A DNA stretch of 64,000 nt. Origin: a bacterium (lineage in GTDB: Bacteria > Bacillota > Clostridia > Lachnospirales > Lachnospiraceae). Under the pieces are notes generated by a model. That model had not been told where the DNA came from and searched no databases. It was given only the letters and a program-made list of their open reading frames with translations. Below, piece by piece: positions 67 to 15,579 of the stretch (positions within the stretch are counted from its first letter, which is position 1; each line of letters opens with the position of its first letter). The stretch is from NCBI GenBank assembly GCA_023664305.1, contig JAMPFT010000020.1, positions 1-64,000 of the forward strand, in the 5' to 3' direction. The position numbers and the translations under genes are program-made.

Positions 67-861
67 ATGAAATATTACGGAGGATGTGATTCCGGAAGCA
101 CCTATACGAAGTGCGTGATCATCGACGAGAATGGCAAGATGGCGGCGGACGTCACCCTGCGCAGCCGGATCAATTCGGTGCTCAGCGCTCAGGACGCTTT
201 AAAGCAGGCGGTGGAACAGGTGCCGGATTTAAACAGCCCGGAGGAGCTGGAATATCTGGTGGGAACCGGCTACGGGCGGAACAAGGTGCCCTTTGCGGAC
301 GAAAATATCTCGGAGATCAGCTGTCACGCTATGGGGGTTCATGTGGCGGATCCCAGCGTAAAGGCCATTATCGATATCGGCGGACAGGACGTCAAGGGTA
401 TTTCCGTAGACACGGACGGGACAGTGTTGAATTTTGCCATGAACGATCGGTGCGCGGCGGGAACGGGACGGTTTTTTGAGGCGATGGCGAGAGCCTTCGA
501 GATGGATCTGGAGGAGTTTTCCAAGCTGTCGCTGAAGGCGAAAAATGTGATTCCCATCACGTCGCAGTGTACCGTGTTCGCGGAGTCGGAGGTCATTTCT
601 CTCGTGGGCGAGGGAAAGCCCATGGAGGAGATCGCGGCAGGAATCGAACTTTCCGTTGCAAAGAGGTGCTTCGTCATGTCGAAGAAGGCGGGAGCGGTGG
701 AAAAGATTACCCTGACCGGCGGCTGCGCGAAGAACGAGGGGCTGAAGGAGGCCATTGAGAAAGTGCTGAACCTGAAGGTGATCGATCTGCCCATCGACCC
801 GCAGCTCATGGGAGCGCTGGGAGCGGCGGAGTATGCAAGGCAAAAGTGCAAGAAAGCGTAA
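67..861 (+). CDS. Acyl-CoA dehydratase activase (BadF/BadG/BcrA/HgdC family ATPase)
   Basis: This 264-residue protein belongs to the ASKHA-fold ATPases that inject one low-potential electron into 2-hydroxyacyl-CoA dehydratases, benzoyl-CoA reductases or double-cubane-cluster proteins. An N-terminal phosphate-binding loop (GCDSGSTYTK, residues 6-15), a second (IDIGGQDVK, 102-110) and a C-terminal loop (LTGGCAKN, 216-223) are visible. Cys129 (DRCAAGTG) and Cys168 (SQCTVF) match the two positions that in HgdC-type homodimers hold a bridging 4Fe-4S cluster. Length is normal for the family. The ATG at 67 follows a purine-rich ribosome site. The partner dehydratase or reductase is not in the window and may lie upstream. 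It starts a tightly packed run of genes reaching 5069. Family is sure; the partner is unknown. Confidence 0.9.
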   Translation: MKYYGGCDSGSTYTKCVIIDENGKMAADVTLRSRINSVLSAQDALKQAVEQVPDLNSPEELEYLVGTGYGRNKVPFADENISEISCHAMGVHVADPSVKAIIDIGGQDVKGISVDTDGTVLNFAMNDRCAAGTGRFFEAMARAFEMDLEEFSKLSLKAKNVIPITSQCTVFAESEVISLVGEGKPMEEIAAGIELSVAKRCFVMSKKAGAVEKITLTGGCAKNEGLKEAIEKVLNLKVIDLPIDPQLMGALGAAEYARQKCKKA

Positions 862-887
862 ATAGCGGAAAGGAACGGTGAAAGAGG

Positions 888-1052
888 ATGCTGGCGATCA
901 AGATAATCGGAATTGCAGCGGCGGTACTGGTTGCGCTGTTTGTGCTGACATTTCTGATTTATTTCTTTAATCTCGACATGAAGCTGACGTCAATGCTTGC
1001 GCCTTTGTTCGAGAAGCATTATGATAAAATAGACAGAGATAAGCATTTATAG
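888..1052 (+). CDS. Small single-pass membrane protein, unknown function
   Basis: A 54-codon ORF starts at ATG 888 (MLAIKIIGIAA...) preceded by AAAGAGG and ends at TAG 1050-1052. Residues 4-29 are one continuous hydrophobic stretch, then a charged tail (FEKHYDKIDRDKH) that is presumably cytoplasmic. It sits 26 bp after the activase and 5 bp before the next gene, so translation is probably coupled. I recognise no family. The position suggests a membrane anchor or accessory for the neighbouring metalloenzyme genes, which is inference. Confidence 0.65.
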   Translation: MLAIKIIGIAAAVLVALFVLTFLIYFFNLDMKLTSMLAPLFEKHYDKIDRDKHL

Positions 1053-1057
1053 ACGAT

Positions 1058-1786
1058 ATGAAACTGTACGATGAAACTATACAAAAATTTCAGGCGCTTC
1101 TGGGGACGGGGCAGGAACGCAGCCTGCCTCTGGGCGAGACGGACTGGAAGGATGTCTCGGATCGGAGTATGATCCTGCGGAGCGATATGGCCTATGAGCT
1201 GGGAGGGGAAGGACTTCCCGCCATCGGCTGTACGGTGGTTACGGCGGATTCGGCTTTGGTTCCGGAGGACAAAATCACGCTTTTGGGTCCGGATCTTCCT
1301 CAGATCGACCGGGATGTACCCTACGCCAGAATCGCCTTTGTGAGAGTGACGGAGGAAGCTCTGGGGGAAGGGCAGGCCCTGTATCAGGCGATCCGGAACC
1401 TGGAATACACGAGATACCACTTCTACCCGGAAGGGTTTATGATGCGTGTTTCTGCTTCCGGGCAGAAGGAAAGCGTCCGGGTCGGCAAGGAAGCCCTGAA
1501 AAGAGGACTGGATTTTACGAAGACCGGGAATCGGATGATAACCGCTTTCCGCAGGCGAACCCCCGTCGAGGCGGTTCAGATCTTTTATGTGACGGCAAAG
1601 GAGGCGGATTATCCGGCGTTTTTGCAGTATACCGCGGAGGCGGAACGCATTACGAAGACCATCGATCACATTATGAAGACGGCGCTGATGGATTGCGGCG
1701 CCTGCAGCCTGCAGAAGGTCTGCGACGAGGTGGAAGGGCTGAAGGCCCTGCATTTCCGGGAGAGACGGGGATCGTCCGGCGAATGA
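1058..1786 (+). CDS. Acetyl-CoA synthase beta/CdhC-like protein, truncated form
   Basis: The 242-residue protein resembles, from memory of the family, the middle part of the acetyl-CoA synthase beta subunit (AcsB/CdhC). Shared landmarks in order are SDMAYELGG near 42-50, a LLGPDL...V block near 75-97, the segment VGKEALKRGLDF...MITAF near 142-164, and AVQIFYVT near 172-179. The end carries Cys213, Cys216 and Cys222 (C-x2-C-x5-C), near where ACS starts its A-cluster ligands (C-x2-C-x8-C-x9-C). The rest of the ACS C-terminal domain is absent, so carbon-carbon synthesis as in true ACS is not supported. Neighbours are the activase upstream and a Fe-S flavoprotein and HypA downstream. The relation to ACS is likely; its role is unknown. 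Confidence 0.6.
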   Translation: MKLYDETIQKFQALLGTGQERSLPLGETDWKDVSDRSMILRSDMAYELGGEGLPAIGCTVVTADSALVPEDKITLLGPDLPQIDRDVPYARIAFVRVTEEALGEGQALYQAIRNLEYTRYHFYPEGFMMRVSASGQKESVRVGKEALKRGLDFTKTGNRMITAFRRRTPVEAVQIFYVTAKEADYPAFLQYTAEAERITKTIDHIMKTALMDCGACSLQKVCDEVEGLKALHFRERRGSSGE

Positions 1787-1896
1787 CGCCGGAATGCGTC
1801 AAAACGGTTCTGCGGCATGGAAAGATTTGCAGAATCCGATAAAGCAAGCAGGAATAAAATGGTGAAAGGAAACCATAAACAAGGAGGATAAAAAAC

Positions 1897-4707
1897 ATGG
1901 CGTTTGACATGGAGCAGTACGAAAGGTGGCCTGCAAACCACAAGCACGATCAAAATCCCAGCAAGAAGATTCTTGCCTTGGGGAAGAAGATCACGGACGT
2001 AGCCGCCCACAAGCTGGGGAGCGTAAAGGTGGAGGATCCGGAATACTGGGGCCTGGCCGAGCTCATCACCGAGGAGATGGCGGAGGTGGGTCTTGCGATG
2101 AAGCTGAGGACGCCCTATACCTTTGCCGAGCTGTGTAAGCTGTGCAAGATTGACAAGGACGGGGAGGAGAAATTCCAGAAGCTCTTGGACGAGATGAGCT
2201 ACATCGGTCTTCTGGAGTACGATTACGGTTATCACTACGACCATAACGGCCGCACCCACGAGCAGACGGAGCGCAGATATGTGCTGCCCATGTTCGTGCC
2301 CGGCTCGGCGGAGCTGTTCAACATGGAGGAGCTGCCCGACAGGAGCAATCCCAGACTGCGGGATCATCCGGACGTTGCTTCCTTCTTTGAGCGCATGACC
2401 TATATTCCCCTGGCGGGTATCACCCAGATGGTGCCGCCCGGAGGCGCCGGGATTGGTATGCATGTCATCCCGGTGGAGAAGGCAATCTCTATGGAGAACC
2501 AGTCGGTGGATCTGGAGCATCTCTCTTATTGGTTGAAAAAGTACGAGGGTCACATCGGCGTAGGACGCTGTTCCTGCCGCGCGTCCCGCAAGGTGCTGGG
2601 AGAAGGCGTGGCGGACGACGATTTCGGCTGGTGTATCGGGGTAGGCGATTTTGCGGATTACTGCCGCGAGACGGGCAAGGGCCACGATATCACCTACGAC
2701 GAGGCGATGGCGATTCTGCAGAGAGCGGAGGAGAACGGCTTCGTACATCAGATCACCAATATCGACGGCGAAAACAAGATTTTCGGTATCTGTAACTGTA
2801 ACGTCAATATCTGTAACGCCCTGCGCACCTCGCAGCTTTTCAACACGCCGAATATGTCCCGTTCCGCCTATGTGGCGCACGTTGACAAGGAAAAGTGCGT
2901 GGCCTGCGGACGCTGTGTGGAGTACTGCCCGGCGGGAGCGACAAGGCTCGGACAGAAGCTTTGCACCAAGGACGGCAAGGAGGTCGAATATCCGAAGCAG
3001 GAGCTTCCGGACGAGGTAAAATGGACGAAAGACAAGTGGGATCCCGACTATCGCGACAACAACCGGATCAACAGTCACAAGACGGGTACTGCGCCCTGTA
3101 AGACGGCCTGTCCGGCGCACATTGCGGTGCAGGGTTATCTGAAGAAGGCTTCCCAGGGCAAGTACAGGGAAGCTCTGGCCCTGATCAAGAAGCAGAATCC
3201 CTTCCCGGCTGTCTGCGGCCGGATCTGTAACCGCCGCTGCGAGGACGCCTGCACGAGGGGAACCATCGACGAGGCGGTTGCCATCGACGCGGTAAAGAAG
3301 TTTATTGCGGATCAGGATCTGAAGGCGGAGACCAGGTACATACCGCCCGTGGTGATCCCGGCCAGCATCCATATGGATCATTTCCCCGAGAAGATTGCCA
3401 TCATCGGCGGCGGTCCGGCAGGACTGAGCGCGGCCTTCTATCTGGCGGAGAAAGGGTATCGCCCTACGGTGTTTGAGAAGAACGAAAAACCCGGCGGAAT
3501 GCTTCAGTACGGGATCCCGTCCTATAAGCTGGAGAAGGACGTCATCGAGGCGGAAATCGACGTCATGCGCGAGATGGGCGTGGAGATTAAGACCGACGTG
3601 GAGGTCGGAAAGGACGTTACCTTAAAGCAGCTGCGCGAGCAGGGCTATAAGGCGTTCTATATTGCCATCGGCTGCAGCGCGGGCCGCCGTCCCGGGGTTG
3701 CCGGAGACGAGGCGGATGGCACCATGACCGCGATCGAATATCTGCACGGGGCAAATACGGGAAATACCTCCTTTACGGGCAGAGTCATCGTGGTAGGCGG
3801 CGGAAACGTGGCTGTGGACGCGGCGAGAGTCAGCGTCAGGAGCGGCGCTTCGGAGGTAACCATGCTCAGCTTGGAGTCCGAGAAGGAGATGCCTGCTTCC
3901 GCGGAGGAAATCCGTGAGGCGGAAGAGGACGGCGTCCTGATCAAAAACGGCTGGGGTCCGAAGGAAGTGTTGACGAAGGACGGAAAGGTGACGGGAGTGG
4001 TATTTAAAAAGTGTCTTTCCGTCACGAACGCGGAAGGAAAATTTGCGCCCACCTATGACGAGAACGACACGATTACACTGAATTGTGACCGGGTGATCTT
4101 TGCCATCGGACAGAGAACGGTGTGGGGTAACCTGTTGGAGGGAGAAAAGGTAGAGTTCAGAGGGCCTGCCGTCGTGGCGGATCAGCTGACCTTCCAGACC
4201 GGCCAGCCGGATATCTTTGTGGGCGGCGACGTCTATACCGGACCGAAGTTTGCCATCGACGCGATTGCCGCCGGACATTACGCGGCGGAGTCCCTGCACC
4301 GCTATGTACACAACGGCCATATGACCATCGGCCGCAACCGCTGGGAGTTTAACGCGCTGGATAAGGACAATATCCGTGTGGATAGCTACGATAATTCCTC
4401 CCGCCAGATTGAGGCGCTGGACCCTTCGGTTCCCGCAAAGTCCTTCAAGGATGCGCATGTAACCTTTACCGAGGAACAGGTGAAGAAGGAGACCGCGCGC
4501 TGCCTGGGCTGCGGCGCTACCATAGTGGATGAGAACAAGTGTATCGGCTGCGGCGTATGTACTACCAAGTGCGAGTTTGATGCGATCACGCTGCACCGCG
4601 ACCGTCCGGAGTGTACGAATATGATAAAGGCGGAGGATAAGTTCAAGGCGATCATCCCTTATCAGCTGAAGCGTGCGGTGAAGATTGTAAAGAACAAGAA
4701 TAAGTAA
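1897..4707 (+). CDS. Multidomain Fe-S/FAD oxidoreductase (GltD-like core)
   Basis: This 936-residue cytoplasmic redox protein has an N-terminal region with Cys225/227 (RCSCR), Cys246/256 and Cys299/301/306. A 4Fe-4S ferredoxin motif follows (Cys334, 337, 340, 344). Next comes a glutamate-synthase-small-chain-like unit: N-terminal cysteines 401, 405, 440, 444, 448, 452, an FAD loop IIGGGPAG (502-509), an NAD(P)H loop VVGGGNVAVDAAR (632-644), and the conserved GGDVYTGP (777-784). The C-terminus has a further cysteine array (869, 872, 882, 885, 888, 892). No glutaminase/GOGAT large subunit is nearby, so it is probably not glutamate synthase but an NAD(P)H-linked electron hub. The ATG follows AAGGAGG at good spacing. 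The gene lies in the activase/ACS-like/HypA cluster. Confidence 0.85.
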   Translation: MAFDMEQYERWPANHKHDQNPSKKILALGKKITDVAAHKLGSVKVEDPEYWGLAELITEEMAEVGLAMKLRTPYTFAELCKLCKIDKDGEEKFQKLLDEMSYIGLLEYDYGYHYDHNGRTHEQTERRYVLPMFVPGSAELFNMEELPDRSNPRLRDHPDVASFFERMTYIPLAGITQMVPPGGAGIGMHVIPVEKAISMENQSVDLEHLSYWLKKYEGHIGVGRCSCRASRKVLGEGVADDDFGWCIGVGDFADYCRETGKGHDITYDEAMAILQRAEENGFVHQITNIDGENKIFGICNCNVNICNALRTSQLFNTPNMSRSAYVAHVDKEKCVACGRCVEYCPAGATRLGQKLCTKDGKEVEYPKQELPDEVKWTKDKWDPDYRDNNRINSHKTGTAPCKTACPAHIAVQGYLKKASQGKYREALALIKKQNPFPAVCGRICNRRCEDACTRGTIDEAVAIDAVKKFIADQDLKAETRYIPPVVIPASIHMDHFPEKIAIIGGGPAGLSAAFYLAEKGYRPTVFEKNEKPGGMLQYGIPSYKLEKDVIEAEIDVMREMGVEIKTDVEVGKDVTLKQLREQGYKAFYIAIGCSAGRRPGVAGDEADGTMTAIEYLHGANTGNTSFTGRVIVVGGGNVAVDAARVSVRSGASEVTMLSLESEKEMPASAEEIREAEEDGVLIKNGWGPKEVLTKDGKVTGVVFKKCLSVTNAEGKFAPTYDENDTITLNCDRVIFAIGQRTVWGNLLEGEKVEFRGPAVVADQLTFQTGQPDIFVGGDVYTGPKFAIDAIAAGHYAAESLHRYVHNGHMTIGRNRWEFNALDKDNIRVDSYDNSSRQIEALDPSVPAKSFKDAHVTFTEEQVKKETARCLGCGATIVDENKCIGCGVCTTKCEFDAITLHRDRPECTNMIKAEDKFKAIIPYQLKRAVKIVKNKNK

Positions 4708-4724
4708 GGAAAGCAGGGAATGAC

Positions 4725-5069
4725 ATGCATGAGCTGGGAGTCGTGTTTTATGTCGTCCGCGACGTAAAGCAGGTGGCGGAAGAGAACGCCGTGGAAAAGA
4801 TTTCCTCCGTGACGCTGCAGATCGGCGAGGTGTCGGGGATTATCCACGATTATCTGATCGACTGCTGGAACTGGGCGAAGAAGAAGGAGCCCGTGATGGA
4901 GGAGGCCGAGCTTAAGATCGAGCAGATCGACGCAGTCACCTTCTGCGAGGACTGCGGGCAGGAATACCCGACGGTGCAGTATGCGAAGGTCTGTCCGCAC
5001 TGCGGCAGCGAGCACACTTACCTTCGACGGGGGAACGAGTTCCTGATAAAAGAAGTGGAAGCATATTGA
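4725..5069 (+). CDS. hypA: HypA-type nickel metallochaperone
   Basis: The 114-residue protein matches HypA/HybF, which delivers nickel to NiFe hydrogenase or other nickel sites together with HypB. The N-terminal Met-His-Glu with His2 is the usual nickel ligand, and a zinc module is formed by Cys74/Cys77 and Cys90/Cys93. Length is typical. It begins 17 bp after the oxidoreductase and is the last gene of the cluster. No hydrogenase, hypB or urease genes are in the window; the only nearby nickel-site candidate is the ACS-like protein at 1058-1786. Some Clostridia carry HypA-like proteins of unknown client, so the hydrogenase link is not assumed. Confidence 0.85.
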   Translation: MHELGVVFYVVRDVKQVAEENAVEKISSVTLQIGEVSGIIHDYLIDCWNWAKKKEPVMEEAELKIEQIDAVTFCEDCGQEYPTVQYAKVCPHCGSEHTYLRRGNEFLIKEVEAY

Positions 5070-5073
5070 CCGG

Positions 5074-5107
5074 AGGCCTGGCGCGGGAGGTTTCCCGCAC
5101 CAGGCCT
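5074..5107. terminator. Long GC-rich hairpin after hypA
   Basis: Eight base pairs (AGGCCTGG/CCAGGCCT), one C-A mismatch and six more (GCGGGA/TCCCGC) close a four-base loop. It starts 5 bp after the hypA stop. No T-run follows, so it may stabilise the 3' end rather than terminate on its own. A smaller hairpin (AACCGG/CCGGTT) lies at 5125-5144. Confidence 0.6.
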
Positions 5108-5147
5108 GACTCGTCCGAAAACAGAACCGGACGAAGAGCCGGTTGCA

Positions 5148-5193
5148 CAAAAGAGGTTGGAGACCGTCCCCGGGCGGCTCTGATCTCTTTTTT
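5148..5193 (+). terminator. Probable intrinsic terminator of the redox cluster
   Basis: AAAAGAG near 5149 pairs with CTCTTTT at 5185-5191 around an inner GC-rich helix, and the 3' side runs into six T residues. It follows the two hairpins after hypA and would end the 67-5069 transcript. The rest of the gap to the next gene (5194-5385) shows nothing I can identify. Confidence 0.6.
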
Positions 5194-5385
5194 GTGACGC
5201 TGTTTGCTTTGCGAATCGTAAATTTTAGTTGCGGCCCAAATTCCGTTTCTGCGCGGCAAGCCGGGTTTGTTTTATTCCCGCGGGCAATGCGCCAAGCGGC
5301 CGTGAAGCGGACGTTTGCCCCTCTTTCGGGAAAAAACAGCGGAAAATTCAGCGAAAAAATTCTCCGGAAAAAATTTACAAAACGG

Positions 5386-5414: not shown

Positions 5415-5491
5415 GAGGGGGACGGCGCGGGAAGAATTTCCGGCGTCCGATATCAGAGTTGCGCGGAGGAATGCGCGGAAGAGAGGAATGT

Positions 5492-6943
5492 ATGGGAGTT
5501 TTATCGGAATTGGAGCCGAAAAGCGTTTTCGGCTATTTCGAAGAGATCACAGGGATCCCCCACGGGTCGGGCAATGTGGGGCAGATCAGTGATTATCTGG
5601 TGAATTTTGCAGAGGAACACGGGCTTTTTTATATCCGGGATGAGTGGAAGAATGTAATCATCGTGAAGGAGGCGTCCTCCGGATATGAGAATGAGCCGAC
5701 GGTGATCCTGCAGGGCCACATGGATATGGTGGCGGTAAAGAAGCCGGGATGTGATATCGATATGAGCAGGGACGGTCTGCGGGTTGCCGTGGACGGCGAC
5801 AGGATCTACGCGGAGGGAACCAGTCTCGGAGGGGACGACGGGATTGCCGTGGCATACGCGCTGGCACTGCTTTCCTCGGATTCTGTCCGGCATCCGAGAC
5901 TGGAGGTTATCCTCACGGTGGATGAGGAGGTGGGGATGGACGGCGCGAGAAATATCGATCTGTCTATGCTTACCGGGCATCGGATGGTGAATCTGGATTC
6001 CGAGGAAGAGGGCGTATTCTTAAGCAGCTGTGCCGGGGGAGCACGGGTAAAGTGCCGCATGCAGACTGCTGAGCAGGAAGTAACGGGTACGGCTTACCTG
6101 GTGACGGTGGACGGCTTGCTGGGCGGGCATTCCGGCGGCGAGATCCATAAAGAGAGAGGAAATTCCAACTGCCTTTTCGGACGGTTTTTGTACAGATTAT
6201 GCGAGCATATGCCGGTGAAGCTGGCCAAGCTGCAGGGCGGTCTGGCGGACAATGCGATTCCGCGGGAAACGTCGGGACTTCTCGTCATCGACGAGAAGGA
6301 CAGCGAAAAGTTTGTCTCTCTTCTGGATACGGTGGAAAAAGAGCTTCAGGCGGAGCTTTGCGTGAAGGATCCGGACGTCAGGATCCGCGCGGAGAAGACG
6401 GAAATCCCGGAAACGGTATGCATGACCGCAGAGGACACGGCGCGGGCCGCCGCTTTTCTGGTGAGTCTGCCGAACGGCGTCCAGGCCATGAGCGCGGATA
6501 TGCCGGGGCTGGTGGAAACCTCTCTGAATCTGGGTATTTTGGAGTATCGGGACGGGGCCGTGTGGGCCGATTTCTCCGTGCGCAGCAGCGTGGAGAGCGC
6601 AAAAAGGGCGTTGATCCAGAAGCTGTGTGCCGTGACGGAGCTTGCGGGAGGTAAAACGGCAGTTTCGGGAGATTATCCGGGCTGGCGGTTTCGGAAGGAT
6701 TCCCCTCTGCGGAAAAAGATGGTGTCCCTGTATGAAGAGATGTACGGGGAGAAGCCCAGGGTAGAGGCTATCCACGCAGGGCTGGAGTGCGGTATTCTGG
6801 GAAGCAAGATCGAGGATCTGGACTGCGTCTCCATGGGGCCGGACATGCAGGATATCCATACGACGGAGGAAAGCTTAAGCATTTCTTCCGTGAGGAGAGT
6901 CTGGGAATATCTGGTAAGACTTTTGGAAAAAAAGGAAGTTTAG
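5492..6943 (+). CDS. pepD: Aminoacyl-histidine dipeptidase (peptidase M20C)
   Basis: The 483-residue protein is a cytosolic di-zinc dipeptidase of the PepD/carnosinase-like M20C family, acting in peptide turnover. Metal and catalytic residues are visible: His76-x-Asp78 (GHMDMV), Asp115 (GGDDG), Glu145-Glu146 (DEEVGM), Asp169 (NLDSEEEG) and the late DIHTTEE segment. The opening MGVLSELEPKSVFGYF...IPHGSGN is typical of the family. I chose ATG 5492, with GAGAGGA four bases upstream, over earlier in-frame starts at 5459 (TTG) and 5471 (ATG), which add residues unlike the family. The next gene begins about 90 bp later on the same strand and may be co-transcribed. Confidence 0.93.
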   Translation: MGVLSELEPKSVFGYFEEITGIPHGSGNVGQISDYLVNFAEEHGLFYIRDEWKNVIIVKEASSGYENEPTVILQGHMDMVAVKKPGCDIDMSRDGLRVAVDGDRIYAEGTSLGGDDGIAVAYALALLSSDSVRHPRLEVILTVDEEVGMDGARNIDLSMLTGHRMVNLDSEEEGVFLSSCAGGARVKCRMQTAEQEVTGTAYLVTVDGLLGGHSGGEIHKERGNSNCLFGRFLYRLCEHMPVKLAKLQGGLADNAIPRETSGLLVIDEKDSEKFVSLLDTVEKELQAELCVKDPDVRIRAEKTEIPETVCMTAEDTARAAAFLVSLPNGVQAMSADMPGLVETSLNLGILEYRDGAVWADFSVRSSVESAKRALIQKLCAVTELAGGKTAVSGDYPGWRFRKDSPLRKKMVSLYEEMYGEKPRVEAIHAGLECGILGSKIEDLDCVSMGPDMQDIHTTEESLSISSVRRVWEYLVRLLEKKEV

Positions 6944-7031
6944 ATTTTATGTGACGTTTTGCGGCGCTGCCCGGCGCAAAGCCGCCGGACAAAAATCGCA
7001 GCGCAGGCTGCAGAAAGGCATGGTGATTCAG

Positions 7032-10000
7032 ATGAGTCAGTTTGACTATAACAAGGTAAAGGATCCTGAGTTCTTCGGAGAAAACAGAGTGCCGGCCCAC
7101 TCGGATCATGTAAGCTACAGGGGGCACGGCGAGGCGGAAAAGGAAAGCTCCGGCTTTCGGTTTGGCTTAAACGGGCTGTGGAAGTTTTCCTATGCGCCCA
7201 ATTACGAGTCCGCGGTCAGGGATTTTGAGAAGCCGGAGACGGACTGCAGAGGCTGGGCGGATATCCGTGTGCCGGCGCATATCCAGATGGAGGGGTATGA
7301 TGCGCCTCAGTATGCCAATGTGCAGTACCCCTGGGACGGCAGGGACGAAGTGATGCCCGGAGAGATCCCGGAGCACTTTAACCCTGTGGCCTCCTATGTA
7401 AAGTATTTTGAGGTGCCGGAGAGCTGGAAGGGCGGCCCGGTGTTCATTTCCTTCCAGGGAGCGGAGAGCGCGCTGGCGCTGTGGTGTAACGGTCATTATG
7501 TGGGGTACGGCGAGGACAGCTTTACTCCGTCTGAGTTTGAACTGACCCCGTTTCTGAAGGAGGGCGAAAATAAGCTGGCGGTCAGGGTATTTAAGTGGTG
7601 CTCCGGCAGCTGGTGCGAGGATCAGGACTTTTTCCGTTTCTCGGGAATTTTCCGGGACGTCTATCTGTACACCGTGCCCGAGGTTCATATCCGGGATCTG
7701 CGGGTGCAGACGCTGTTGAACGATACCTTTGACAAGGCGGAGCTGGTACTGGATCTGCAGGCTACGGCGGCGGGCAGCGTAAAGCTGACCCTGACCCGGG
7801 AGGAGAGAAGCTATCGTTTTGATCCGGTTTACCAAAAGAACCCGGGGCGGCTTGTGGAGGAAAAGGCGGTTGCGCAGATGACAGCCGATCTGGAGCAGGA
7901 GAGCCGGCTTTCCCTTTCCGTGGAAAAGCCCCTTCTTTGGAGCGCGGAGACGCCAAACCTGTACCGGCTGACGATCGAGGTGTCGGACAGAGACGGGAAG
8001 CTGCAGGAGGTCATCCCCGTCCGGGTGGGCTTCAGGCGCTTTGAGATCGCGGACGGACTGATGAAGCTCAACGGCCGGCGCATCGTATTTAAAGGTGTAA
8101 ACCGCCATGAATTTAGCTCCCGCACGGGCCGCGCGGTCAGCGAGGCCGAGCTTTGGCAGGATCTTGTGACCATGAAGCGGCACAATATCAACGCAATCCG
8201 GACATGCCATTATCCCAATGATTTTAGAATCTATGACCTCTGCGACAGGCTGGGGCTGTACATGATCGACGAGTGTAATCTGGAGTCCCACGGCTCCTGG
8301 GATTCGGCGCTTCGGGGCGTGATTCCGAAGGAATCCGTTGTGCCGGGGAACAGACCGGAATGGAACGCCGCGATGCTGGACCGTGTCAACTCCATGTATC
8401 AGAGAGATAAAAATCATGCGGCCATCCTGATCTGGTCCTGTGGAAACGAGGCCTACGGCGGGAAGAATATTTACGATATGTCCCGGTTTTTGCGGGAGCA
8501 CGATTCCGGCCGGGTGATCCAGTATGAGGGAATCTGCCACGACAGAAGCTATCCGGATACCAGCGATGTGGAGAGCCAGATGTATACCAGCGCGGCCAAC
8601 ATCGAAAAATGGCTGCAGAAGGACAGGAGCAAGCCCTTTATCTGCTGTGAGTATACTCATGCCATGGGAAATTCCTGCGGGGCCATGCACAAATATACGG
8701 AGCTGGCGGAGAGAGAGCCTTTGTACCAGGGAGGATTCATCTGGGACTATGTGGATCAGTCCATCTATAAGAAGGATCGCTACGGAAAGGAATTTCAGGC
8801 CTACGGCGGCGATTTTGACGACAGACCCTGCGATTACAATTTCAGCGGAAACGGCATTGTCTACGGTGGTGACAGGCTGCCGTCGCCCAAGATGCAGGAG
8901 GTCAAATATAATTACCGCAATATAGACGCCGAGGTCGGCGAGGACAAGGTTACGGTTACCAACAGAAACCTGTTTGTCGGCACCGACAGCTATGACTGCT
9001 TTGTCCGCCTGGAGAAGGAAGGAAGATTTCTGGAGGAATGTCTGCTGCCCACGGATGTAAAGCCCGGCTGCAGGAAGGAATACGATCTGCCCTTTGCGGT
9101 TCCTCAGCAGAAAGGAGAATATACCGTGACGGTCTCTTTCTGCCTGAAGGAGGATACGGCATGGGCGGCGGCAGGGCATGAGGTCGCTTTCGGACAGGGC
9201 GTGTTTACGAAGACCGACGAGTGGATTGCGGACAGGTCTCTTGCCGTGAAAAAGCCGCTGCAGGTCATCCACGGATTTTACAATCTGGGCGTTCGGGGAG
9301 AGGAGTTCGAGGCTCTGTTTTCCTACGGCGGCTGCGGACTGGTTTCTTACCGCTACGGCGGGAAGGAGATGCTCAAGACAATGCCTCTGCCTAACTTCTG
9401 GCGGGCACCGGTGGATAACGACTGCGGGAATCACATGATGCAGCGCTGCGGGCAGTGGAAGCTGGCCAGCATGTATGTCGGAAACTACGGCATTCGGGAG
9501 AAAAATCCCGTGGTGACGGAGGAAGAGAACTGCGTTACCGTGACCTGCAGGTACCAACTGCCTACCAGGCCTGTGGCCGAATGTGAACTTCGCTATCGGG
9601 TATACGGGGACGGTACTGTCGAGACGACACTTTCCATGGACGCGGCAAAAGAGCTGGGCGATCTGCCGGAATTTGGCGTTATCCTGAAGATGGACGCGGA
9701 TTATGACAGGCTGGAGTGGTACGGCAACGGCCCGGCGGAAACCTATGCAGACAGGCAAAAAGGGGCAAAGCTGGGGATTTACAAAAATTGCGTGGCCGAC
9801 AATATGGCCGGATACATGGTGCCTCAGGAGTGCGGCGCAAAGACAGAGGTACGATACGCCAAAGTAACGGATGCAAAGGGCAGGGGGCTGCTCTTTGCCG
9901 GAAAGGGGATGACCTTCTCCGCCCTGCCTTACACGCCTCACGAGATGGAAAACGCGGCACATGCCAACGAACTGCCGCAGGTGCATTATACCGTGGTCAG

Positions 10001-10121
10001 AGCGGCTATGGCGCAGATGGGCGTGGGAGGCGACGACAGCTGGGGAGCCAGAGTGCATGACGAATATCTGCTGCCGGCGGAAGGAAAACTGGAGTTTACC
10101 TTCTGCTTCCGCGGGATATAG
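7032..10121 (+). CDS. lacZ: Beta-galactosidase, glycoside hydrolase family 2 (LacZ type)
   Basis: The roughly 1029-residue enzyme hydrolyses lactose and other beta-galactosides. Domain order is GH2 sugar-binding jelly roll, immunoglobulin-like domain, TIM barrel, second Ig-like domain and the C-terminal beta-galactosidase small-chain domain. Glu473 in WSCGNEAYGG fits the acid/base and Glu540 in CCEYTHAMGN the nucleophile. There is no signal peptide, so it is cytoplasmic. The start is uncertain: GTG 6951 opens the frame, but homologues begin near MSQFDYNKVKDPEFF; ATG 7020, GTG 7023 and ATG 7032 are candidates, with AGAAAGG at 7012-7018 giving the best spacing to 7023 and a loose one to 7032. 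No lactose transporter or regulator is adjacent. Confidence 0.95.
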   Translation: MSQFDYNKVKDPEFFGENRVPAHSDHVSYRGHGEAEKESSGFRFGLNGLWKFSYAPNYESAVRDFEKPETDCRGWADIRVPAHIQMEGYDAPQYANVQYPWDGRDEVMPGEIPEHFNPVASYVKYFEVPESWKGGPVFISFQGAESALALWCNGHYVGYGEDSFTPSEFELTPFLKEGENKLAVRVFKWCSGSWCEDQDFFRFSGIFRDVYLYTVPEVHIRDLRVQTLLNDTFDKAELVLDLQATAAGSVKLTLTREERSYRFDPVYQKNPGRLVEEKAVAQMTADLEQESRLSLSVEKPLLWSAETPNLYRLTIEVSDRDGKLQEVIPVRVGFRRFEIADGLMKLNGRRIVFKGVNRHEFSSRTGRAVSEAELWQDLVTMKRHNINAIRTCHYPNDFRIYDLCDRLGLYMIDECNLESHGSWDSALRGVIPKESVVPGNRPEWNAAMLDRVNSMYQRDKNHAAILIWSCGNEAYGGKNIYDMSRFLREHDSGRVIQYEGICHDRSYPDTSDVESQMYTSAANIEKWLQKDRSKPFICCEYTHAMGNSCGAMHKYTELAEREPLYQGGFIWDYVDQSIYKKDRYGKEFQAYGGDFDDRPCDYNFSGNGIVYGGDRLPSPKMQEVKYNYRNIDAEVGEDKVTVTNRNLFVGTDSYDCFVRLEKEGRFLEECLLPTDVKPGCRKEYDLPFAVPQQKGEYTVTVSFCLKEDTAWAAAGHEVAFGQGVFTKTDEWIADRSLAVKKPLQVIHGFYNLGVRGEEFEALFSYGGCGLVSYRYGGKEMLKTMPLPNFWRAPVDNDCGNHMMQRCGQWKLASMYVGNYGIREKNPVVTEEENCVTVTCRYQLPTRPVAECELRYRVYGDGTVETTLSMDAAKELGDLPEFGVILKMDADYDRLEWYGNGPAETYADRQKGAKLGIYKNCVADNMAGYMVPQECGAKTEVRYAKVTDAKGRGLLFAGKGMTFSALPYTPHEMENAAHANELPQVHYTVVRAAMAQMGVGGDDSWGARVHDEYLLPAEGKLEFTFCFRGI

Positions 10122-10715: not shown

Positions 10716-11054
10716 ATGGAAAGAATCAAAAAAATTATAGAATTTCTAAAAAAAAGACATAAGGCGAGAAAGGCAGATTTCTATGGCAGCATCGCGTTTG
10801 GATCGTGTTTCAGGCTTGCGCCGCCTTCATTTTTCATACTCAATGATAAGGAGACGGTTCGTCGTGAGCTGGATCGGGCAGAATGCGAAGCGCTGGAAGC
10901 CCTTGAGAGAAATTTTAAGGAGGAGGCGATCGGAATCCGGGAGGACAGGGCAAAAAGAATAAAGGCAAGAGAGGCGCAAAGAATAAGGGCAGACGAAGGA
11001 AAGCAGCAACAGGGCATAGAAGCGGAAACTTTGATCCTGACAGGGAAATCGTAA
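10716..11054 (+). CDS. Hypothetical protein, charged and mostly helical
   Basis: A 112-residue ORF starts at ATG 10716 with AAAGGATG about eight bases upstream. The N-terminus is basic (MERIKKIIEFLKKRHKARK) and residues 45-100 are rich in Glu, Arg, Ala and Lys, probably a long helix or coiled coil. I see no known domain, signal peptide or membrane segment. It is flanked by the divergent XRE gene and tRNA-Pro. A good ribosome site and upstream -10 support expression, but composition alone could mislead, so confidence is moderate. Bases 11055-11187 hold nothing I recognise. Confidence 0.45.
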   Translation: MERIKKIIEFLKKRHKARKADFYGSIAFGSCFRLAPPSFFILNDKETVRRELDRAECEALEALERNFKEEAIGIREDRAKRIKAREAQRIRADEGKQQQGIEAETLILTGKS

Positions 11055-11187
11055 ACCGGCGGCAGATTTGAAAACGTTGAAATTTGTAACTGAAATAATG
11101 AGAAAACAATAGAAACCACGATATATTGTATTTTAGCAGAACATCTTGTTATCCGCAAGCAAAAAGCAGAAAAAAGCAAAAAAACTA

Positions 11188-11216
11188 TTGATTTTTTCTC
11201 TTAGACACGTTATAAT
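11188..11216 (+). promoter_or_regulatory. Promoter of tRNA-Pro
   Basis: TTGATT (11188-11193) and TATAAT (11211-11216) are 17 bp apart; the start would be about 7 bp before the tRNA 5' end. Confidence 0.75.
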
Positions 11217-11229
11217 GCTTATTGTGTTT

Positions 11230-11304
11230 CGGGGTGTGGCTCAGCTTGGTTAGAGCGCCACCTTAGGGAGGTGGAGGTCGCGAGTTCGAATCCCGCCACT
11301 CCGA
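11230..11304 (+). tRNA. tRNA-Pro, anticodon AGG
   Basis: A 75-base cloverleaf with acceptor CGGGGTG/CACTCCG (one G-T pair), a D-arm GCTC/GAGC, anticodon stem CCACC/GGTGG with loop TTAGGGA (anticodon AGG) and T-loop TTCGAAT. The discriminator is A and CCA is not encoded. C1-G72 fits bacterial tRNA-Pro. The T-stem carries one A-C mismatch (52-62). A34 would need deamination to inosine, or reads only CCU. It has its own promoter and terminator. Confidence 0.9.
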
Positions 11305-11317
11305 TATTGTGAGAAAT

Positions 11318-11355
11318 GCCAAAGCCTTGATTTCCAAAGCTTTGGCGTTTTTTTT
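11318..11355 (+). terminator. Intrinsic terminator of tRNA-Pro
   Basis: GCCAAAGC (11318-11325) pairs with GCTTTGGC (11339-11346), followed by G and eight T residues. Confidence 0.85.
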
Positions 11356-11413
11356 GTCCGGAGAATCCGCGGCAGGGCGGTCCGGTTAGAAGAACGGTGG
11401 AGGAAGAGTCGTG

Positions 11414-12748
11414 ATGCGGCAAACGGCGGCAGAAAGTCATTCTCAAAGGGAAAAGAGTAAAAAGAAGAAAGCGATGCCGAAGAGGGCGGGACAAAAGGAG
11501 ACCGGTCAGCAGGGCCCGGCAAGGCCTGAAAAGAGAGAGACGGCGGTCTGTGCCGCAGCGGGACGGTGCGGCGGCTGTACCTGGATTGGAAAGGATTACC
11601 GGGAGCAGCTGGAGGCGAAAGAAAAGAGATTTCGCAGAATGATGGAGCCGTATTGTAAACCGGAGCCGATCATCGGCATGGAAGAAGCGGCGCATTATCG
11701 GAACAAGGTTCATGCGGCGTTTGGCGAGGATAGAAGGCATAATGTGATTTCGGGTATTTACGAGGAAAACAGTCACCGGATCGTGCCGTTAGACAGTTGT
11801 TACATTGAAAATCAAAAGGCGGATGAAATCATTGTATCTATCCGCGGACTGCTGAAATCCTTTAAGATCCGGCCGTACAACGAGGACACCGGATACGGGC
11901 TGCTGCGTCATGTCCTGATCCGGACAGGCCACGCTACGGGACAGGTCCTGGTGGTGCTGGTCTTAAGCTCTCCGATTATGCCTTCCAAAAATAATTTTGT
12001 CAGGGCGCTTTTAAAGCTCCATCCGGAGATTACCGCTATTGTTGTCAATGTCAATGACCGGGATACCGGGATGGTGTTAGGGGAAAAGGAGCAGGTCATC
12101 TACGGAAAGGGATATATCGAGGATAAAATCTGCGGTAAGACATTCCGCATTTCGGCGAAATCTTTTTACCAGGTCAATCCCGTGCAGGCGGAAAAACTTT
12201 ATCGGAAGGCGTTGGAGTATGCGGAGCTGACCGGAGGCGAGACGGTTGTGGATGCCTATTGCGGCACGGGAACCATCGGTATTGTCGCGGCAGAGCAGGC
12301 AGGAAGAGTCATAGGAGTGGAAAACAACCGGGATGCCGTGAAGGATGCCAGAAGCAATGCAAAGCGCAATCAGGTGTACAATATAGAGTTTTACGAAAAC
12401 GATGCGGGGAAGGTTCTGACGGAGATGGCGCAACAGGGCGCGCAGATAGATCTGGTCATCCTGGACCCGCCCCGCAGCGGCAGCAGCGAGGCGTTTTTGG
12501 AGGCGGCGGCAAGGCTTGCGCCCCGGCGGGTGATATATATTTCCTGCAATCCCGACACGTTGGTCCGGGATCTGAAGCTGTTGACGGGAAAGGGCTATAA
12601 GGTACAGAGGGGCGTCGCGGTAGATATGTTTCCGTTTACAGAGCACACGGAAGCAATCGTCTGTCTGGACCGAAAGCAGGGCGGCGACAGGCCGTCGGGA
12701 AGCTCCCCGAAAAGGGGAGAGGGCCGAAAGCGGACAAAAAGAGATTGA
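11414..12748 (+). CDS. rlmD: 23S rRNA (uracil-5-)-methyltransferase, RlmD/RlmCD (RumA) family
   Basis: The roughly 444-residue SAM-dependent enzyme makes 5-methyluridine in 23S rRNA. The Fe-S motif is visible at Cys46, Cys52 and Cys55 (AAAGRCGGC) with a later Cys in PLDSC. The SAM-binding motif is VVDAYCGTGTIGI, then LDPPRSG, and Cys378 in YISCNPDTL is the methyl-accepting nucleophile. The usual N-terminal TRAM domain is missing; instead there is a 40-residue basic extension (SQREKSKKKKAMPKRAGQK). GTG 11411 or ATG 11414 are both possible behind GGAGGAAGAG. The C-terminal 20 residues are basic and come from a short duplicated DNA sequence. The substrate uridine cannot be told from sequence. 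Confidence 0.92.
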   Translation: MRQTAAESHSQREKSKKKKAMPKRAGQKETGQQGPARPEKRETAVCAAAGRCGGCTWIGKDYREQLEAKEKRFRRMMEPYCKPEPIIGMEEAAHYRNKVHAAFGEDRRHNVISGIYEENSHRIVPLDSCYIENQKADEIIVSIRGLLKSFKIRPYNEDTGYGLLRHVLIRTGHATGQVLVVLVLSSPIMPSKNNFVRALLKLHPEITAIVVNVNDRDTGMVLGEKEQVIYGKGYIEDKICGKTFRISAKSFYQVNPVQAEKLYRKALEYAELTGGETVVDAYCGTGTIGIVAAEQAGRVIGVENNRDAVKDARSNAKRNQVYNIEFYENDAGKVLTEMAQQGAQIDLVILDPPRSGSSEAFLEAAARLAPRRVIYISCNPDTLVRDLKLLTGKGYKVQRGVAVDMFPFTEHTEAIVCLDRKQGGDRPSGSSPKRGEGRKRTKRD

Positions 12749-12779
12749 TCCGGCTGTCGGGAGGTTCCCTGAAAAGGGT
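12694..12779 (+). repeat. Imperfect direct repeat with hairpin at the end of rlmD
   Basis: Two 24-base copies (12694-12717 and 12756-12779) match at about 20 of 24 positions. Copy 1 contains the hairpin CTCCCC-GAAAA-GGGGAG and lies inside rlmD; copy 2 lies between the convergent genes. There is no clear T-run, so no classic terminator separates rlmD from the permease gene. Confidence 0.5.
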
Positions 12780-12780
12780 G

Positions 12781-15579
12781 CTAATCCTCACCGAGCTTCA
12801 AAGCCTTGCTGATGTTCATGCGGGAAACGATCCGGGCCAGTACGGTCAGGCAGAGGCATATTACGACGGCGATTACGGCAAAAAGCTGAATCAGATCCGC
12901 CCTGTCGCTGATTAATTTTAGAGGAAGGACCTGATCTGCTGCGGCGTAGGCGTTTTGGATCATGGGGACGAACATCCGGGAGGAAAGCAGGCCGATGACG
13001 CCTCCCGAGACGATGGCGAACAGGCCGGAAAAAATCTGTTCAATGATCAGCATCCAGACGATTTCCCTTTTTCGCATCCCCATGGCGCGGAGCACGCCGA
13101 AGAGAAGCTCCCTGGATCGGATCGACAGGATCCAGTAGATCAGGTAACCGGTGCAGCAGAGAATCAAAACCACCAGAAAGCTCATGGAGAGGATACCACT
13201 GGTGCCCTGGATCAGCGTAGTCTCCGCCATTTCGGCAATCTGCTCCGTCGTATTTCGGAAGGAGGTGAGAAGAACCTCCGTATGCTCTGTCATCCACTCT
13301 GTCAGTTCCCTTCCGCCGTCGTCGGTGGCGATCCACACCTCGTAGGGCCGGACACCCGCGGATTTCTGGAGACTGTGGAGATTTGCGACGATCAGATAGT
13401 TTTCCGTCTCTTCCGCCTCGCCGTATTCGTTCAGGGAATATTCTGAGGGAATAAACCCCGGCCAATAGGGGAAAAAGCCCCGGATGTAGCCGCCGACGCT
13501 GCCCTTATGGACGTTTTCCAGAGTAATGTAATCTCCCAGCCGGTAGCCTAAGCGGGTCATAAAGTTTTCGGATACCAGAAATCCGTTCCCGTCGCCTGCC
13601 AGTACATTCAGGTAAGTGCGATAGTCGTAGGGAAGGAGACCGTCCCGCAGATCGGCGACTTCGGCAAAGCTCCCCGTCTGGATTCCCATGAGCTGAACGG
13701 AAGGGGAGCCGGAGGTTTTTAAGGTAACCGTTTCCCTCTGAACCCTGGTTACGGCAGTGATATCGTCTATCGTCTGATATTTGGAAAATTCCGGTTCCGT
13801 ATAGACAAGCTTGTCCGCCAGGCCGCTGTTGATCAGGTCCGCGTTGGTTCGGAATTTTTCCGTCAGCACAATCTCCGCGCCGTTCCGATAGCTTAAGTTG
13901 GCGTTGGAATTTGCGATGATCGTTCTGGCGATGGTCGTATTGGAAATACCGATGGCTATGGTCAGCATCATGAACACAATCATAAATTCCTGCCGGGATC
14001 CCGTCTGGATGGCGGAGAGGAAAGCGGTGTAAGCCGCGGGCCTCAGCCGTTTGGAGGTCAGCCGGTAAATCAGCCTCAGAAGCAGGGGCTGCAGGCGGCA
14101 GACAAAGAGGCTGCAGCCTAAAATAAACAGGGAAAAGCTGATATACAGGAGAGGATCCATACCCTTTCCCGTCAGGACGTCCTCCATGACGACGCCTGTG
14201 TTTCTGCGGTAGCTGTAGAATCCGTAAAGGGAGACAGTCAGGCAGATCAGGTCCAGGCAGGCCTTCTTCCAGAGGGAGGTATGCTTCAGGGATCTGCTCT
14301 GCTTGAGGTTTACGATGGACACATCGCTGTAGCTTATCACGGGGAGGGCGGTCATGATCACGGAAAGAAGGATGGCCGCCGCGACGTAAACGAGGATATC
14401 CGCAGTAAAGATCAGAGGCAGGGGATGCGTCCCGTGAAACTCCAGAAAAGCCGTGGCTTTCCCTAAAAGTCTGCAGAGGGCCAGTCCCAGCGGAACGCCC
14501 GGCAGCAGGGCGAACAGGGACAAAAACAGGCTCTGGAACAGGTACAGGGAGAAAATCTGACTCTTTTTTGCGCCCCGGCTTTTCAGCAGGGAAATTTCGT
14601 TCCGCTCCATATCCAGCATCTGGCCGGAAATCATGAACAGGAAAGAGCAAAGAAGCAGGAGTACCGGGATCTGAAGGATCGTCAGCGTCAGCTCCACCTT
14701 TTTGGCGTTGGCGCTGTACTGGGTCAGAATATTGCAGAAAACCTCGGCGTTTACCTTCTTTTCCAGGCTGCTCCAGCTTTGTACCCCGCGGTAGGCATTG
14801 AGGTAGTCGGAGACCTTTGAAATCGGAATCTGCCGGTAATCCCAGCAGGCGGTCCAGTATGCGTCCAGACCGTAGCCCAGATCTTTACCGTCGTCTACAA
14901 ACAGGCTGCAGAAGGTATCCATATCCAGGAACACTCTTTTATCCATATCAGTAAAGGCGCGGGTCCAATAGTTGTCGGAGGCGTCCAGAGGACGGAAGAC
15001 GCCGGTAATACGGATCGAGATATCGTTTCCCTGTGTATCGGTAAACAGATCGTAGGTAAAAATATCTCCCAGCAGCACATCCAGCTCTACCATGGCGGAT
15101 TCGCTGAGCATCACTTCATAGCAGCCGTCTGCCGCCTTTCCGGTTTCCGGGAACTGCCCCTGGACGATCTCCACATGGCCGCGTAAATCGGACATGGCGG
15201 AGAGGTACATTTTCTTTTCCTTTTTGTTGTCTCGGATCTCCTGCGGAAGCACTCTGCCGGAACTGAGGCCGAAGGTGGTGATTCGGCGGCTTACGGGGAT
15301 TCCGATGGCATCCAGCGCGTCGTTGAACGCTTTTTCCGTTTTTTCCAGCGGAGAATTGGAGATGTTCTTGATCGTATGCTGGGACACGAAAAGGACGGCG
15401 GGCCAGGTTCCGTTCGTCTCATAATAGTCTTCAAAGTCGTCGGTCAGCATCCGCTGAAAGGCGGAGACCCGGTAGAGGGGCTGGCTTACCGCCACGGCGA
15501 TCAGCAGCACGTTTCCCAACAGCATGCAGGCGACCATCCATTTTTTATGTAAAAGCTTTTGGAACATCAGAGAAAACAT
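12781..15579 (-). CDS. Large FtsX-like ABC transporter permease
   Basis: The 932-residue membrane protein has one N-terminal membrane helix (about 17-33), a long extracellular domain, a first bundle of helices (starting near LTLTILQIPVLLLLCSFLFMI), further helices in the middle, a second extracellular domain, and a C-terminal FtsX triplet (ILSMSFLVVLILCCTGYLIYW, IFSGLFAIVSGGVIGLL, LFAVIAVVICLCLTV). The layout matches MacB/FtsX-type ABC permeases with duplicated cores. I chose ATG 15579, preceded by AGGGGG, over the longer frame. Upstream in the operon are three adaptor lipoproteins. No nucleotide-binding subunit is found in the window, although FtsX-type permeases normally need one. Confidence 0.85.
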   Translation of the reverse strand: MFSLMFQKLLHKKWMVACMLLGNVLLIAVAVSQPLYRVSAFQRMLTDDFEDYYETNGTWPAVLFVSQHTIKNISNSPLEKTEKAFNDALDAIGIPVSRRITTFGLSSGRVLPQEIRDNKKEKKMYLSAMSDLRGHVEIVQGQFPETGKAADGCYEVMLSESAMVELDVLLGDIFTYDLFTDTQGNDISIRITGVFRPLDASDNYWTRAFTDMDKRVFLDMDTFCSLFVDDGKDLGYGLDAYWTACWDYRQIPISKVSDYLNAYRGVQSWSSLEKKVNAEVFCNILTQYSANAKKVELTLTILQIPVLLLLCSFLFMISGQMLDMERNEISLLKSRGAKKSQIFSLYLFQSLFLSLFALLPGVPLGLALCRLLGKATAFLEFHGTHPLPLIFTADILVYVAAAILLSVIMTALPVISYSDVSIVNLKQSRSLKHTSLWKKACLDLICLTVSLYGFYSYRRNTGVVMEDVLTGKGMDPLLYISFSLFILGCSLFVCRLQPLLLRLIYRLTSKRLRPAAYTAFLSAIQTGSRQEFMIVFMMLTIAIGISNTTIARTIIANSNANLSYRNGAEIVLTEKFRTNADLINSGLADKLVYTEPEFSKYQTIDDITAVTRVQRETVTLKTSGSPSVQLMGIQTGSFAEVADLRDGLLPYDYRTYLNVLAGDGNGFLVSENFMTRLGYRLGDYITLENVHKGSVGGYIRGFFPYWPGFIPSEYSLNEYGEAEETENYLIVANLHSLQKSAGVRPYEVWIATDDGGRELTEWMTEHTEVLLTSFRNTTEQIAEMAETTLIQGTSGILSMSFLVVLILCCTGYLIYWILSIRSRELLFGVLRAMGMRKREIVWMLIIEQIFSGLFAIVSGGVIGLLSSRMFVPMIQNAYAAADQVLPLKLISDRADLIQLFAVIAVVICLCLTVLARIVSRMNISKALKLGED

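Follow-up and report, generated by a model that had tools for sequence, protein, structure and literature searches.

Five genes of a Lachnospiraceae contig as the probable downstream part of a two-module redox operon

The window analysed in this study is a stretch of 64,000 nucleotides from a Lachnospiraceae genome. Judging by sequence, the five genes with which it opens are probably the downstream portion of an operon that extends beyond the window and is built of two modules. The first of these, module 1 or the core, comprises a CooC-like ATPase, the HGD-D proteins DHA and DHB, an activase, a membrane peptide (TMP) and ACSL, a protein related to acetyl-CoA synthase (ACS). Module 2 comprises HypB, an IsrA-like flavoenzyme (FSFL) and HypA. 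Our reading, which we hold tentatively and at slightly less than even chances, is that module 1 may be an ATP-driven low-potential reductase or dehydratase with CooC-loaded nickel, accompanied by a nickel-chaperoned flavoenzyme.

The window and the upstream half of the operon

The first-pass annotation of this DNA had described five genes packed on one strand. Frame calls confirmed five open reading frames on the plus strand at 67-5069, and their coordinates and families were also confirmed. The features of the window, and those of contig C32 of the same genome, are as follows.

1-55, no strand: border of a repeated element that is probably an insertion sequence (four other contigs also carry it)
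67-861, plus: activase of the HgdC/BzdQ type, putative ATP-driven electron injector (Pfam and NCBIfam families)
888-1052, plus: TMP, single-pass membrane peptide of 54 amino acids (homologues in 43 of 45 loci, among the matches listed)
1058-1786, plus: ACSL, ACS middle-domain protein of 242 amino acids (PF03598)
1694-1723, plus: CxxCx5C of ACSL (C213, C216, C222), candidate metal site (79 of 79 alignment rows)
1897-4707, plus: FSFL, IsrA-like Fe-S flavoenzyme (Pyr_redox_2, Fer4_20, Fer4; two CxC motifs)
2569-2799, plus: FSFL segment with both CxC motifs and the intervening cysteines (from the sequence)
4725-5069, plus: HypA, nickel metallochaperone, probable FSFL partner (HypA family; genome co-occurrence)
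5068-5196, plus: hairpins with T run, probable operon end (fold z -6.98)
C32 8454-9128: HypB, in the contig end region
C32 9346-10179: CooC-like ATPase
C32 10372-11562: DHA, HGD-D protein
C32 11562-13112: DHB, HGD-D protein
C32, last after DHB: flavodoxin-like frame, named by eye (no match in an NCBIfam search)

HypA reached 111.6 bits against Pfam HypA (cut-off 28.9) and 76 against TIGR00100 hypA, under the cut-off of 88.1. A Pfam search with TMP returned no family. A terminator had been placed at the end of the cluster, and strong hairpins were found 3' of HypA, with the T run within the last 3' arm. A simple consensus terminator scan gave 5 sites against a shuffle mean of 5.2, which is not above chance. 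Further downstream, at 5459-10121, the window holds ordinary genes, including a beta-Ala-His dipeptidase-type peptidase and a LacZ-type beta-galactosidase.

Base 1 of the window is base 1 of contig C12. The start of the cluster at position 67 therefore reflects an assembly break, and genes further upstream are invisible in the window. The first 53 to 55 bases have copies that are 98-100% identical on four other contigs of the same genome, which indicates a repeated element, probably an insertion sequence. On two of these four contigs the copy was shown at the contig end, and the repeat was absent from the locus of a relative, L037.

A double-cubane or dehydratase-like gene had been predicted upstream of the activase, and a DHA/DHB pair was indeed found, both on C32 and in L037. 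The latter is a Roseburia MAG whose ACSL is 95% identical to the present one. Its single contig carries HypB, CooC, DHA, DHB, the flavodoxin-like gene, activase, peptide, ACSL, two inserted genes, the flavoenzyme and HypA. The inserted genes lie at 10907-12868 between ACSL and the flavoenzyme, and one of them looks like a P-loop ATPase by eye. Because a single L037 contig shows the complete gene order, C32 and C12 very probably represent the two halves of one operon, and the repeated element seems to split it between DHB and the activase in the present genome.

The core module

A scan of named genomes with the ACSL alignment gave 264 confirmed relatives, and locus counts were made on 80 of these 264. 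The 80 belong mostly to Lachnospiraceae, and also to Oscillospiraceae, Emergencia, Pseudoflavonifractor, other Clostridia and a few Spirochaetes. Lachnospiraceae of gut and rumen carry the core branch widely, and it also occurs in some Oscillospiraceae and Spirochaetes. Among the 45 of the 80 listed relatives with at least 9 kb upstream of ACSL, CooC was found in 44, DHA in 41, DHB in 41, the activase in 44, TMP in 43 and HypB in 9. The neighbourhood that had been supposed from the window is therefore conserved across relatives, with core genes in 41 to 44 of the 45 listed loci. Gaps were also seen: L049 is without activase, L053, L074 and L081 are without DHA/DHB nearby, L093 is without CooC, DHA and DHB, and L110 and L115 are without TMP. 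Outside the 45-locus set, the examined stretch of L021 has DHA, DHB and ACSL but neither activase nor CooC; the genome of L021 holds a second, complete locus, L015. The missing core genes of L093, L053, L074, L081, L049 and L021 count against our two-module reading. Of nine additional loci, eight carry all six core genes, and the ninth, L188, is cut by a contig end.

Genome counts, which ignore relatedness, gave the same picture of ACSL and DHB. In 150 family genomes ACSL occurred in 14, and strong DHB matches (E <1e-80, 14 of 40 matching genomes) occurred in the same 14. In 391 class genomes, a sample that overlaps the family sample in at least G000 (the present genome) and G082, standalone ACSL occurred in 7, again the same 7 as the strong DHB match. 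The other five ACSL-profile matches in the class genomes sit in open frames of 537 to 719 amino acids and look like true ACS. A search of plasmids with ACSL gave no match. Flanking genes, considered as a clue to the substrate, showed mostly shared synteny and common families.

The conserved cysteines were counted in alignment rows that include the reference row, from which proteins cut by contig ends or under 80% of full length had been dropped. The reference for HypB, CooC, DHA and DHB comes from L015, which is the same contig stretch as L038, so that one sequence is counted twice in these row counts. One of the ACSL sequence sets holds 65 of the 79 sequences.

PF06050 (HGD-D) matched the two L015 proteins at 4.7e-86 and 3e-36. 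The closest solved structure to DHA was BzdN (1e-23), and DHA residues C37, C75, C102, C270, C302 and C338 align exactly on BzdN C36, C73, C100, C263, C293 and C327. The six BzdN residues hold an [8Fe-9S] cluster according to the consulted sections of PMC11971306, in which BzdNO is the first double-cubane enzyme for which a catabolic role is defined. In DHA the six cysteines are kept in 61, 62, 63, 62, 63 and 63 of 63 rows, respectively. The DHB profile found DCCP, MbdO, BzdO and a dehydratase alpha subunit among solved structures. Counted on the profile alignment, DHB C180 falls on BzdO C95, and C209 falls on residue 129, one off the ligand C128. C447 falls on BzdO C380 in a stretch scoring -2.2 bits, and it also pairs with a cysteine in the better MbdO alignment. 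C180 and C447 are present in all 77 rows and C209 in 76 of them, and the DHB branch has extra cysteines at C373 (74/77), C201 (72/77) and C205 (63/77). DHB thus appears to keep three cysteines like the catalytic [4Fe-4S] ones of BzdO, one of the three being a residue off in the alignment.

The activase matched BcrAD_BadFG at 3.5e-59, the acyl-CoA dehydratase activase family at 1.4e-67 and TIGR00241 with 227.9 bits (cut-off 125.4). Its nearest solved relatives were MbdQ and dehydratase activators, and C129 and C168 are present in 74 of 74 rows. Among the NCBIfam models tested, the L015 DHA and DHB proteins reached no equivalog cut-off, and the activase passed the general activase model only, which sets them apart as a separate branch. 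From these matches, we place the core within the ATP-driven benzoyl-CoA reductase/dehydratase/DCCP kind, where it forms a new branch.

Second DHA/DHB pairs were also observed. One lies on contig C11 of the present genome (L035, 9261-11992) and is 63% and 55% identical to the L015 proteins; no activase, CooC or ACSL was found beside it. Others, at L185 4137-7336 and L186 10404-13737, have their own membrane peptide and run divergently to the main-core CooC gene. The membrane peptide therefore seems to go with DHB.

The ATPase had CooC as its best solved relative (6.6e-18, the next at 7e-9), and its CxC pair (C118, C120) is present in 63 of 63 rows. In CooC this pair presumably binds nickel. ACSL scored 34.4 bits against CdhC/PF03598, the ACS middle domain (cut-off 24), and its family profile found ACS in the PDB at 6e-8. 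A profile-profile comparison with ACS (hhalign) gave a probability of 91%, with an alignment that ends before the CxxCx5C. This motif lies behind the middle domain, and C213, C216 and C222 are invariant (79/79 rows). All three forced joint alignments place C213 and C216 on the leading CxxC of the A-cluster motif of ACS, and two of them place C222 on a further ACS cysteine; we take the ACS cysteines so aligned to be A-cluster ligands. In unforced HMM alignments with 22 ACS proteins, CxxC fell on CxxC in 2 and was shifted in 1, and 19 ended before the motif. ACSL may thus keep the start of the ACS cluster site. The A-cluster domain PF19436 had no match in the present genome, and 13 of 14 sampled ACSL carriers show no such domain. 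We rejected the view that ACSL is a true ACS, given the absence of this domain from the genome. We likewise rejected a decaying ACS remnant, given that the cysteines are kept in 79 of 79 rows and that the presence of ACSL tracks DHB.

The gene content, co-occurrence and cysteine conservation are direct observations; from them we infer the clusters themselves, the nickel of module 1, the electron flow and the link between modules in the following scheme. Module 1 would belong to the benzoyl-CoA reductase/2-hydroxyacyl-CoA dehydratase/double-cubane kind and act, driven by ATP, as a low-potential reductase or as a reductive dehydratase. On ATP hydrolysis the activase would pass electrons to an [8Fe-9S] double cubane in DHA, and from there they would reach a [4Fe-4S] cluster with an open site in DHB. 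Nickel would be loaded by the CooC-like ATPase, most likely into the ACSL site, where the CxxCx5C stands beside an ACS-type domain; a nickel role of ACSL by this route is possible. A nickel-bearing core would amount to a new kind of metal enzyme, and nickel on ACSL would make that protein a natural, minimal relative of the ACS A-cluster. The core branch, which in every sampled genome is accompanied by this ACS-derived protein and in most cases by an adjacent CooC-like ATPase, could readily furnish a new metal site.

A nickel-free core has also to be weighed. Module 1 would then be a 2-hydroxyacyl-CoA dehydratase or aryl-CoA reductase, with ACSL as a CoA-binding or docking subunit whose cysteines hold ordinary Fe-S or zinc. 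The CooC-like ATPase would aid Fe-S building, and the neighbouring ene-reductase may reduce the product. To our knowledge, the characterised relatives of DHA and DHB found here are all nickel-free, which speaks for this explanation. The A-cluster domain missing from ACSL also speaks for it, and so does the fact that many loci have an ene-reductase-type flavoenzyme, IsrA-like or BaiCD/OYE-like, next to the core. The relation of the ATPase to CooC and its CxC pair speak against it, and we consider a nickel-free core unlikely, while giving it real weight. Our two-module reading has in turn to accommodate an ACSL with three cysteines and without A-cluster domain, and a motif match that comes from forced alignments. 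Going further, ACSL could have a minimal ACS-type Ni-Fe-S site loaded by CooC and driven to very low potential by the activase and the double-cubane DHA/DHB pair. Fermenting gut bacteria would then have an ATP-driven nickel enzyme that joins electron injection like that of benzoyl-CoA reductase to ACS-like chemistry with CO, methyl or acyl groups, a proposal that we regard as speculative and rather improbable.

The flavoenzyme module and its link to the core

A previous report, PMC10134865, described IsrA as a putative isoprene reductase of Acetobacterium wieringae. By the features given in the accessible part of that paper, FSFL is like IsrA: the domains come in the same order, and a distance of 74 residues separates two CxC motifs. 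With about 900 amino acids and a GltD-like core with Fer4 domains, it is also as the IsrA type (clade 9) is described there. The 74-residue spacing was found in 34 of 35 FSFL-family rows, and the exception, from L115, is an OYE-type protein. Among 988 IsrA homologues, the same part of the 2023 paper reports HypA near 73% and HypB near 56%, and it proposes IsrA as a client of HypA/HypB. The IsrA-HypA-HypB association is thus already published, and our literature search found no follow-up on IsrA. In the present genome HypA adjoins FSFL and HypB lies on C32, and in L037 HypB is in the same operon.

In this study, we found IsrA-like proteins (E <1e-40, 31 of 76 matching genomes, the best of the rest at 2.1e-12) in 31 of the 150 family genomes, HypA over its family cut-off (43 of 65 matching genomes) in 43, and both in 30. 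ACSL was absent from 20 of the 31 IsrA genomes. Of the 13 genomes with HypA and without IsrA, 10 have a match to PF00374, the NiFe hydrogenase large subunit. The present genome, 94.64% complete, has no PF00374 match, in agreement with the earlier claim that the client of HypA is not a hydrogenase here. The observation that the window has neither hydrogenase nor hypB thus extends to the genome for the NiFe large subunit, but hypB lies on C32 of the same genome. HypA therefore goes with the IsrA-like enzyme or with hydrogenases, as observed in a sample with only three ACSL genomes without IsrA (G069, G082 and G086). Nine stretches of viral contigs with HypA were also found, none of which was confirmed.

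Pairwise distances of ACSL correlated with those of DHB, DHA, CooC and the activase (r 0.75 to 0.84), of FSFL (0.72) and of HypA (0.92), and in each case 0 of 999 permutations was as high. The HypA-ACSL value (0.917, n=31) was the best of the pairs tested, and FSFL-HypA gave 0.862. These correlations represent co-inheritance of linked genes, and the modules are not separated by them.

The first-pass annotation had made HypA the loader of ACSL. In that explanation HypA, with HypB, would deliver nickel to ACSL, which would be reduced by the activase and the flavoenzyme. Both genes are in the same operon here and in L037, and the distance correlation of 0.917 and the co-occurrence of HypA with ACSL (11 of 14 ACSL genomes against 32 of 136 others, p 7e-5, kinship ignored) also fit HypA loading and to that extent count against our two-module reading. 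The co-occurrence that had been expected between the two was borne out in these 11 genomes but fails in G069, G082 and G086, none of which has HypA. HypA is present in 30 of 31 IsrA genomes, ACSL is absent from 20 of these 31, and the IsrA-HypA association appears in the consulted part of PMC10134865. Since HypA follows IsrA and is absent from the three ACSL genomes without it, loading of ACSL by HypA is very unlikely. The HypA step of the earlier account was therefore replaced by a CooC step, CooC being the better nickel lead for the core.

In our reading of two modules, each would have its own chaperones. Module 2 would be an NAD(P)H-dependent Fe-S flavoenzyme with nickel chaperones of its own, which probably reduces a C=C bond, perhaps in the product of module 1. 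If this is true, clients would be provided for orphan nickel chaperones of these bacteria: the core for CooC, and the IsrA-like enzyme for HypA/HypB.

The two modules could instead be unrelated neighbours, with IsrA/HypA/HypB as a separate enzyme that stands beside the core by chance in some lineages. Downstream flanks of 5 kb or more were available for 58 listed loci. Flavoenzyme and HypA occur together in 29 of them, the flavoenzyme alone in 2, HypA alone in 2 and neither in 25; these 25 fit chance neighbours. Of the 136 family genomes that have no ACSL, 20 possess an IsrA-like protein, which likewise fits chance. The HypB/flavoenzyme/HypA block of L082 is next to the core but on the other strand, which fits two modules and is also what separate enzymes would show. 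ACSL and IsrA-like proteins co-occur in 11 of 14 ACSL genomes against 20 of 136 others (p 1.4e-6, kinship ignored), and this argues against chance, together with another kind of flavoenzyme beside the core. BaiCD/OYE-like flavoenzymes were found at most 1.3 kb from the core in 5 of 102 loci, a set that includes several stretches counted twice. Three are BaiCD/bilirubin-reductase-like OYE flavoenzymes in loci without IsrA-like protein (L185 13110-15179, L186 1933-3996, L187 777-3188). Matches in L098 and L115 are likewise beside a core without IsrA-like protein, the one in L115 on the other strand. In L074 and L183 such a flavoenzyme lies 4.5 to 9.3 kb from the core. We consider chance neighbours a serious alternative, albeit on balance improbable. 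Since both kinds of flavoenzyme are related to presumed C=C reducers, we suggest that the core may yield an unsaturated product that the neighbouring flavoenzyme would reduce.

Comparison with known systems

In the open-licence PMC literature we found no paper describing the core, and the portions of PMC7306483 and PMC10418091 consulted do not describe it. CooC, ACSL and peptide partners are unreported for the benzoyl-CoA reductase/dehydratase/DCCP kind in the literature searched.

Class I benzoyl-CoA reductase Bzd/Mbd (BzdNO with BzdPQ) shares with the core two HGD-D subunits, one with six double-cubane cysteines and the other with three catalytic-cluster cysteines, and an activase. However, DHA and DHB score far under the NCBIfam cut-offs (bzdN 91.7 of 453.8 bits), one activase gene is present here against the two MbdP/MbdQ chains of Mbd in the PDB, and CooC, the membrane peptide and ACSL are added. 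DCCP and its reductase have the HGD-D fold family, the double-cubane cysteines and an activase in common with the core. The core proteins differ in that the double_cubane model gave 146 and 43.8 of 350 bits, under the cut-off, and in having two different subunits, whereas DCCP is a homodimer in the available text of PMC11971306. The (R)-2-hydroxyacyl-CoA dehydratase HadBC/HadI also combines two HGD-D subunits with an activase, but the HadB and HadC models gave 21.3 of 750 and 92.4 of 700 bits, and the core has extra subunits.

Acetyl-CoA synthase (AcsB/CdhC) with CooC/AcsF is comparable in that ACSL is homologous to its middle domain and has a CooC-like ATPase alongside; unlike the synthase, ACSL has 242 amino acids and three cysteines and is without the A-cluster domain. 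IsrA with HypA/HypB, as far as described in the part of PMC10134865 consulted, agrees with module 2 in domain order, CxC spacing and the nearness of HypA and HypB, whereas FSFL is here joined to the core module.
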